From Methanobrevibacter sp. (GTDB lineage: Archaea > Methanobacteriota > Methanobacteria > Methanobacteriales > Methanobacteriaceae), in NCBI RefSeq assembly GCF_015062935.1, contig NZ_SUTM01000019.1:1-51306 (forward strand): a stretch of DNA of 51,306 nt, read 5' to 3'. Each line of letters begins with the position of its first letter. The stretch's first letter is position 1. Shown here piece by piece: positions 50,494-51,306 of this stretch. The notes below the pieces were generated by a model that worked only from the letters and a program-made list of their open reading frames with translations, made no database searches and had not been told where the DNA came from. Made by a program: the position numbers and the translations under genes.

Positions 50494-50654
50494 TTTAATA
50501 CCTCGAATTAGTAAATTATTATTTACTAGACATTTATTATTTTTGAGTTGTATACTATTTAATTATTATGATTAACTGTGTTAATTTAAGGGTATTTTTA
50601 GAAAAAATAGATAATTATTAAAGATTAATATGTCGAAACATTTATTAATCATGA

Positions 50655-50700
50655 TTAAATGACTGCAATTTTGTTAAATGACTTCAACAAGCTTTAAATA
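50655..50700 (+). promoter_or_regulatory. Upstream element and TATA box of a leader transcript
   Basis: Direct repeats TTAAATGACT at 50655-50664 and 50674-50683 (19 bp apart, about two helical turns), right after a perfect palindrome TTAATCATGATTAA (50644-50657), then TATA-like TTTAAATA at 50693-50700. Transcription would start near 50725, just before the first GGAGGTGAT. Confidence 0.4.
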
Positions 50701-50734
50701 GTATATTAAACAAAATAAGTTCTAATTAAGCCTC

Positions 50735-50959
50735 AAACGGAGGTGATATGTATTAAACTTGTTTTAAGCAATCATTACATACCAATCATTGCCATTCATT
50801 ATGAATGTTTTGATGACTCCGTTCTCATCAATTCAACGGAGGTGAAGTCCTTGGAGATGATAATGCTCCTGATGGTAACATATTTTTTTAATGTGAAAAC
50901 CATATTGGAAATCTTATTGATTGCCACATTAAGAGCATAATCTCTCAGAATTCACCTCC
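50735..50959 (+). other. Foldable leader with two Shine-Dalgarno sequences
   Basis: AACGGAGGTGA occurs at about 50736-50746 and again at 50834-50844. CTCCGTT at 50817-50823 can pair with either copy (7 bp), and TTCACCTCC at 50951-50959 can pair with the second (GGAGGTGAA, 9 bp). Thus each ribosome binding site can be either free or masked. The first precedes ATG TAT TAA, a two-codon frame; the second precedes a 27-codon frame. Confidence 0.45.
50857..50940 (+). CDS. Possible 27-residue hydrophobic peptide
   Basis: From ATG 50857 to TAA 50940. The product begins MIMLLMVTYFF and continues with a second hydrophobic half (ILEILLIATLRA), long enough for one membrane helix. GGAGGTGA lies 12 bp before the ATG and TTGGAG directly before it. 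An in-frame GTG at 50743 would give 65 residues but sits inside the first ribosome binding site. Without conservation data this remains tentative. Confidence 0.3.
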   Translation: MIMLLMVTYFFNVKTILEILLIATLRA

Positions 50960-51006
50960 AAAATTAGAGGCAATCGGAAAAAATCAATTTCAATGATGGA
51001 CTTTTA

Positions 51007-51071
51007 GAAAACACCAACCAATGTTTTCGCCGAGGCTTTTTGCCTAGAAGAACACTAACCGATTACCTCCA
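51007..51071 (+). other. Stem-loops between the two leader transcripts
   Basis: GAAAACA/TGTTTTC (51007-51028) with loop CCAACCAA, followed by AGGC/GCCT around TTTTT (about 51034-51045). The loop hexamer CCAACC is complementary to the GGTTGG bulge of the hairpin at 51161-51213. Confidence 0.4.
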
Positions 51072-51082
51072 ATATAATTACA

Positions 51083-51213
51083 TTTATATACAACATCATC
51101 GATAATTATTACACAAGAGTGTTAACCTCGCCGAGGATAACCTCAATGAATTGATGAGATATTAATGTCTAAGGTTGGTATTGTAAGAGAAATCTTACAA
51201 TATAGACATTAAT
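51083..51213 (+). ncRNA. Candidate structured RNA with bulged 21-bp hairpin
   Basis: TATA box TTTATATA at 51083-51090 predicts a start near 51114. The transcript would hold GTTA-CCTC/GAGG-TAAC (51121-51141) and then a near-perfect hairpin: outer arms ATTAATGTCTA/TAGACATTAAT (11 bp), a 7-nt bulge AGGTTGG on the 5' side only, inner arms TATTGTAAGA/TCTTACAATA (10 bp) and a GAAA tetraloop at 51189-51192. No frame of note. The 3' end is unknown; a T-rich stretch follows at 51254-51270. Confidence 0.45.
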
Positions 51214-51306
51214 TAATTAAACTATTTTTAGGGAATTCCCCATAATTCTGTAATTAACTTTTTTTAATTATTTCATTAGATTATTGTTATTATGATGTTG
51301 GATTTT

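Follow-up and report, generated by a model that had tools for sequence, protein, structure and literature searches.

Comparative sequence analysis of a 51,306-nucleotide stretch of Methanobrevibacter DNA (the window) identifies the site considered here as one of many copies of a dispersed, ~600-nt Methanobrevibacter module, in which it probably represents the mRNA half of a type I toxin-antitoxin-like system in archaea, with a predicted transcript encoding a putatively toxic membrane peptide. The module begins with a promoter block, followed by two Shine-Dalgarno sequences (SDs) and two ORFs, then by a structured 3′ core and another TATA box, and finally by a structured small RNA that ends in a T-run. 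In the peptide mRNA, SD1 belongs to a leader ORF and SD2 to a conserved hydrophobic peptide of 25-31 aa, with the 3′ core behind them; the small RNA, called RNA2, has a TATA box and a T-run to itself (Table 1). This antisense RNA, encoded downstream at the same locus, was overlooked in an earlier note on the DNA, which had described a switchable SD leader before a membrane peptide. An mRNA-encoded small hydrophobic peptide and a complementary RNA encoded at the same locus are two features of type I systems that the module shows; repression by a transcribed small RNA and toxicity of the unrestrained peptide, two further ones, are predicted for it.

Table 1. Positions of module features in the window copy
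Feature	Position	Strand	Remarks
Promoter box GCAATTTTGTTAAATGACTTCAACAAG	50665..50691	+	Directly 5′ of TATA1; aligned in 68 copies
TATA1 TTTAAATA	50693..50700	+	Putative promoter of the peptide mRNA; TTTAAAT or TTAAAT in 55/65 copies
P1 5′ arm AAGCCTC	50728..50734	+	Predicted mRNA 5′ end; pairs with 51032-51038
SD1 AACGGAGGTGA	50736..50746	+	Motif search
Leader ORF	50748..50756	+	From SD1-linked ATG; M-Y-stop, 2 codons in the window copy
Address segment TCTCATCAATTCA	50823..50835	+	Perfect complement of 51147-51159
SD2 AACGGAGGTGA	50835..50845	+	Motif search
Peptide ORF2	50851..50940	+	TTG start, 29 aa, MEMIMLLMVTYFFNVKTILEILLIATLRA; aligned family start
Distal anti-SD TTCACCTCC	50951..50959	+	Pairs with SD2 across the peptide frame (helix 5)
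3′ core	50969..51067	+	Outer stem 50969-50977/51059-51067; hairpin 51007-51028; P1 3′ arm GAGGCTT 51032-51038
TATA2 TTTATATA	51083..51090	+	Putative small-RNA promoter; TTTATATA in 53/65 copies
RNA2	51110..51229	+	Predicted antisense small RNA with predicted ends; R2 match 51080-51220
RNA2 parts		+	5′ hairpin; SD-complementary AACCTC 51139-51144; address 51147-51159; terminal hairpin 51162-51212; T-run 51222-51229

Module architecture and distribution

Related loci in other species of the genus were recovered by a 411-base DNA search, with the best similarity downstream of the originally noted site, and inspection of the loci revealed a uniform module anatomy in differing gene neighborhoods. 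Covariance models of the core (R1) and of the small RNA (R2) match 40 and 43, respectively, of the 67 genomes of the genus, the R2 search leaving 24 of the 67 without a match, and an order-wide R2 search returned 46 of 150 genomes, of which only three, all of a second genus (g23), lie outside Methanobrevibacter. The window's own genome carries five R2 matches, four of which are full modules. All 93 core matches, together with one RNA2-only locus (G000:C10), were taken into the locus collection, and 68 full-length copies were extracted for comparison; many of the genomes are draft MAGs and several loci stop at contig ends. RNA2-only copies are common and peptide-only loci few, a scarcity that is partly a sampling effect because most loci came from the RNA models.

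A pattern scan of named genomes yielded five loci, four of them Methanobrevibacter MAG contigs with full modules, while the match in a Clostridia MAG (L174) and the single viral match (L177) fall inside coding genes and were set aside as chance. No phage or plasmid record matched one 596-nt module query, and no Rfam family scored above its gathering score, the best hit (E 0.13) lying far below it. Three modules stand in tandem at one locus (L101, L102 and L106; G075:C15 67.6-70.3 kb), one of them with a short tandem duplication within its core. At the RNA2-only loci L181, L183 and L188, message promoter-like sequence is found directly 5′ of the small RNA, an arrangement that a deletion of the message would leave.

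The ORF2 peptide

The small hydrophobic peptide frame described in the earlier note is present and its peptide is conserved across the family; the start assigned to it, ATG 50857 with 27 residues, turns out to be an internal codon. The conserved start is TTG 50851, which opens a frame of 29 codons whose stop ends at 50940, and other copies carry ATG, GTG or TTG at the aligned position. An ORF2 of 24-36 aa is found in 59 of the 68 full-length copies, the other nine having an ORF2 outside this range or without a start codon, and the ORF2 profile matches all 68, two of them weakly (E about 0.03). Among the 59, starts are GTG (34), ATG (19) or TTG (6), placed 8-9 nt 3′ of the SD core in most cases. 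The peptide consensus is MELIIFxIGTYxFNIxxIxK, usually with a basic tail: a hydrophobic 19-aa window is present in 49/59 peptides, and the last ten residues are net positive in 49/59. Codon position 2 is the most conserved (0.80) and position 3 the least (0.58), and the peptide HMM alone matches 41 of the 67 genus genomes. Searches of Pfam and NCBIfam with 36 peptides gave no match at useful E-values. An origin of the frame as the remains of a longer membrane protein disrupted by a frameshift was rejected because conservation falls on the short ORF and not on the joined one.

Shine-Dalgarno sites and the leader ORF

The two identical SDs reported for the site are indeed present, and AACGGAGGTGA occurs nowhere else in the window on either strand; the remaining motifs of the earlier note, namely CTCCGTT (50817-50823), TTCACCTCC and the TATA element TTTAAATA, likewise lie where it had placed them. 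Besides its very short ATG-initiated leader ORF, the window copy has an open frame of 65 codons that starts at GTG 50743. In the family at large (66 copies examined, of which three lack an ORF2 start, leaving 63 measured), the ORF starting at SD1 extends beyond the ORF2 start in 56/63 copies, the window copy being an exception, and the leader ORFs of all 63 are distributed over all three frames relative to the peptide (37/17/9). Such overrun of the ORF2 start in any frame fits ribosome passage through SD2 rather than a conserved leader product, and leader coupling is doubtful, and may be lost, in the window copy because its leader ORF has only two codons.

Folding of the peptide message

To describe the message fold we used averaged single-sequence folds, which replaced an RNAalifold prediction on the first 12 core sequences that gave a poor structure, aligned over 66 copies (the 68 without L107 and L106). 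The masking of SD2 by the distal TTCACCTCC across the entire peptide frame, as the earlier note had envisaged, is borne out as a conserved hairpin with compensatory changes: the pairing is kept in 86.0% of alignment cells, both sides have changed at 6 of 11 pairs, and SD2 pairs with the distal segment at a mean probability of about 0.7-0.8. The core outer stem is paired in 94.4% of cells, with both-side changes at 11/13 pairs. Over the whole mRNA structure, 82.3% of cells are paired versus 38.8-47.5% when the structure is slid by 1-3 columns, a control that somewhat favors the proposed fold because the fold was derived from the same sequences. Cells changed on both sides number 461 versus 200.9 expected in shuffles of the 66 mRNAs, an expectation that ignores the relatedness of the copies, in which cell counts are not independent events. 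The pattern that the earlier note had named as refuting, in which flanks are conserved and the pairing segments are not, was also looked for, and the pairings proved conserved.

The internal CTCCGTT had been proposed as a switch capable of masking either SD. It is not among the recurrent helices of the averaged folds, where SD1 pairs with this stretch at only about 0.16-0.19, and in the window's own minimum-energy fold it does not pair with an SD. Conserved beside it is instead the 13-nt segment 50823-50835, which is complementary to the downstream small RNA.

A further predicted pairing, P1 (helix 1), joins the 5′ terminus of the message (AAAGGCCTC-like) to the core (GAGGCCTTT-like) and crosses the core stem, which would give the mRNA a pseudoknot. 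P1 comprises 7 bp in the window, and across the copies it is paired in 82.6% of cells with both-side changes at 7/9 pairs. Its arms covary, with five copies (L108, L138, L103, L117 and L023) keeping a long pairing with different letters, and the mean score is 23.2 for a copy's own arms versus 17.5 for crossed ones (best of 20 reshufflings, 18.2). P1 is absent from the nested fold, in which the GAGGC stretch of the window core pairs locally instead, and it is mispaired in 27/66 copies at one position and in 23/66 at another.

RNA2 and its private address

Across 65 RNA2s, the terminal hairpin carries both-side changes at 12 of 17 pairs, and five T are found within 45 nt of it in 63/65 copies. 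Behind AACCTC, RNA2 carries a spacer whose sequence is the reverse complement of 10-16 nt lying directly 5′ of SD2 in the same copy. In most copies, the best predicted duplex between RNA2 and the message covers the leader together with SD2 and the initial codons. In the window, this address is a perfect 13-nt match (best of 500 shuffles, 11); it is shorter, 5-9 nt, in 32/65 copies.

Address and duplex tests were performed on 65 of the 68 copies (without L107, L004 and L106), which contain 56 distinct address strings. The exact address run averages 9.7 nt for own partners versus 5.3 nt for crossed and 4.8 nt for shuffled ones, and the leader-RNA2 duplex energy is -50.8 kcal/mol for own versus -39.2 kcal/mol for crossed partners, the best of 10,000 permutations reaching -42.0. 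Ranked by energy among all 65 partners, a copy's own RNA2 comes first for no more than 18 of the 65 leaders, which we attribute to close relatives sharing addresses. Because the copies are related and the counts are not independent, comparisons within a genome are the better control: in 122 ordered within-genome comparisons, the own address run is longer in 116, tied in three and shorter in three, and the own duplex is better in 106 of the 122 ordered pairs.

None of 23 orphan RNA2 addresses, several of them from mis-cut sequence windows, matches a resident module over more than 7 nt. Longer matches, which serve only as a lead, link some orphans to modules found in other genomes: 12-13 nt for L010, L183, L187 and L190, and 10-11 nt for L022, L105 and L139. 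The first four may be remnants or a form of antitoxin-only protection.

A second peptide family

The same order of parts is found around a second peptide (family B; MSIQrKFWIGvLIYTII..., with a relative in genus g23) that bears no visible sequence resemblance to the first and, judged by sequence comparison, is an independent replication of the module design. For 17 of 22 family B loci (five were omitted because the module was only partly matched), oriented before the test, the address run averages 12.5 nt for own versus 7.8 nt for crossed partners, with the own value above the row mean in 17/17; without orientation, no contrast is seen (12.3 versus 12.1). In two g23 genomes the run reaches 17 nt and ends at the SD. 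The window's genome itself contains a family B match (G000:C6:106965-107276). At L214 (G002:C73; 1-620 and 1040-1401), a promoterless fragment of a family A module is followed, after a few hundred bases, by a module of family B.

Proposed mechanism and alternative explanations

From the arrangement of these elements we infer an order of regulatory events. An mRNA driven by TATA1 would carry the leader ORF and the small hydrophobic peptide ORF and would by itself be quiet, with SD2 locked in the long frame-spanning hairpin and the 5′ end docked in the 3′ core through the P1 pseudoknot. A ribosome on the leader ORF crossing SD2, or 3′ trimming of the message, could then open SD2, in a manner comparable to mok translation and hok processing in bacteria. 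RNA2, expressed from its own downstream promoter, would pair through the private address and AACCTC over SD2 and thereby block the peptide, which would enter the membrane and slow or harm the cell once RNA2 runs short. The earlier note's reading of the site as a type I toxin message is strengthened, since its SD masking and its hydrophobic peptide are conserved together with a cognate antisense RNA in many species; its CTCCGTT switch and its ATG 50857 start are not supported.

The same RNA mechanism could act on a small membrane peptide that is not a poison but serves, for instance, in envelope stress or in modulating a transporter. A conserved hydrophobic peptide and antisense control would fit such a role equally well, and the promoter box is common to apparently ordinary genes, including a permease; we nevertheless regard this as unlikely, since the many scattered copies, some in tandem and some decaying, the remnants with RNA2 alone and the private address of each copy are more reminiscent of addiction modules than of a housekeeping peptide.

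The dispersal of the element, and the highly similar elements found across genomes with unmatched flanks (for example L110/L120, 94.7%), would suit a non-autonomous, MITE-like mobile repeat with only incidental genes, and the module itself may be mobile. However, coding-pattern conservation, compensatory RNA changes and intermolecular covariation require selection on both RNA and peptide, which argues against incidental genes and leaves this explanation very improbable. Attenuation of a downstream gene by a leader peptide, also entertained in the earlier note, draws on the window site's combination of a short ORF and SDs that can pair in alternative ways but strikes us as exceedingly improbable: the element ends in its own self-contained small-RNA gene with a T-run rather than in an operon, no conserved gene lies directly downstream, the copies recur in many gene contexts, and RNA2 covaries with the leader.

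Relation to known systems

The hok mRNA is characterized by 5′-3′ pairing, and the antisense gene of hok/sok overlaps the toxin gene on the opposite strand. As outlined in one account, hok/mok/sok of plasmid R1 combines a peptide message that has an overlapping leader ORF, mok, with an antisense RNA at the leader region, and folding of the hok mRNA conceals translation until 3′ processing (PMC4147584). The module is similar in its predicted translation-hiding fold and its leader-directed antisense RNA, and may be so in its leader ORF, which runs past the peptide start in 56/63 copies but not in the window copy. Unlike in hok/sok, the RNA2 gene follows downstream in tandem, on the same strand and without overlap; RNA2 is only locally complementary, has an address specific to each copy and covers the SD of the peptide itself, and the host is an archaeon. 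The module peptides, 36 of which were searched, are not assigned to the Hok family, having no Pfam or NCBIfam match at useful E-values. In the same account, tisB/istR-1 and zor/orz place a small peptide (TisB, 29 aa) under repression by a separate, non-overlapping small RNA with short complementarity to the 5′ leader, as in the module; their genes are divergent and pair away from the SD, whereas those of the module are in tandem, with pairing that reaches SD2 and a putative 5′-3′ pseudoknot (PMC4147584). Because peptide and antisense layout differ, we do not file the module under hok/sok or tisB/istR-1; by analogy, it is functionally beside hok/mok/sok and tisB/istR-1 and a member of neither family.

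RNA-based toxin control in archaea is represented by CreTA, as described for a toxin that is itself an RNA repressed through CRISPR-Cas (PMC8501985), whereas in the module the predicted toxin is a peptide, whose mRNA is the target of base-pairing. MsoT1/MsoA1 of Microcystis extends the type I design beyond the classical phyla but is bacterial, and according to the background given with it, type I systems were known only from Proteobacteria, Firmicutes and Tenericutes before that 2025 paper added a cyanobacterial case (PMC12390103). In the open-licence PMC literature, searched mostly by title and the start of the abstract, we found no archaeal type I system. The case for a wider interpretation appears evenly poised: the modules could form a native archaeal type I superfamily, convergent with hok/mok/sok, in which the copies of one cell are mutually insulated by co-evolving private addresses, one RNA chassis serves at least two unrelated peptide families across two genera, and orphan small RNAs whose addresses are intact may immunize against the modules of other species. 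If the module works as proposed, it would extend type I control logic to archaea, make gut methanogens a source of dozens of orthogonal RNA pairs of natural origin and provide a handle on inducible growth control in organisms relevant to methane reduction.

Upstream elements

The peptide mRNA is predicted to start near 50725. The promoter-box pattern, with at most one mismatch, is found in 40/67 genus genomes, versus none for the reversed-pattern control. The box CAATTTTNNNNANTGGCTTCAACAAG before TATA1 (window 50665-50700) is also located 5′ of other genes of the genus (L193-L197, L200-L211), among them those for a small protein (MPYDYYD...), a permease, a GNAT-like protein and an ATPase, as named from their translations, and it looks like a site for some regulator. 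A second TATA-like element, TTTATATNNGATGTTT (window 50639-50650), lies ~50 bp 5′ of TATA1 and is kept in many copies.
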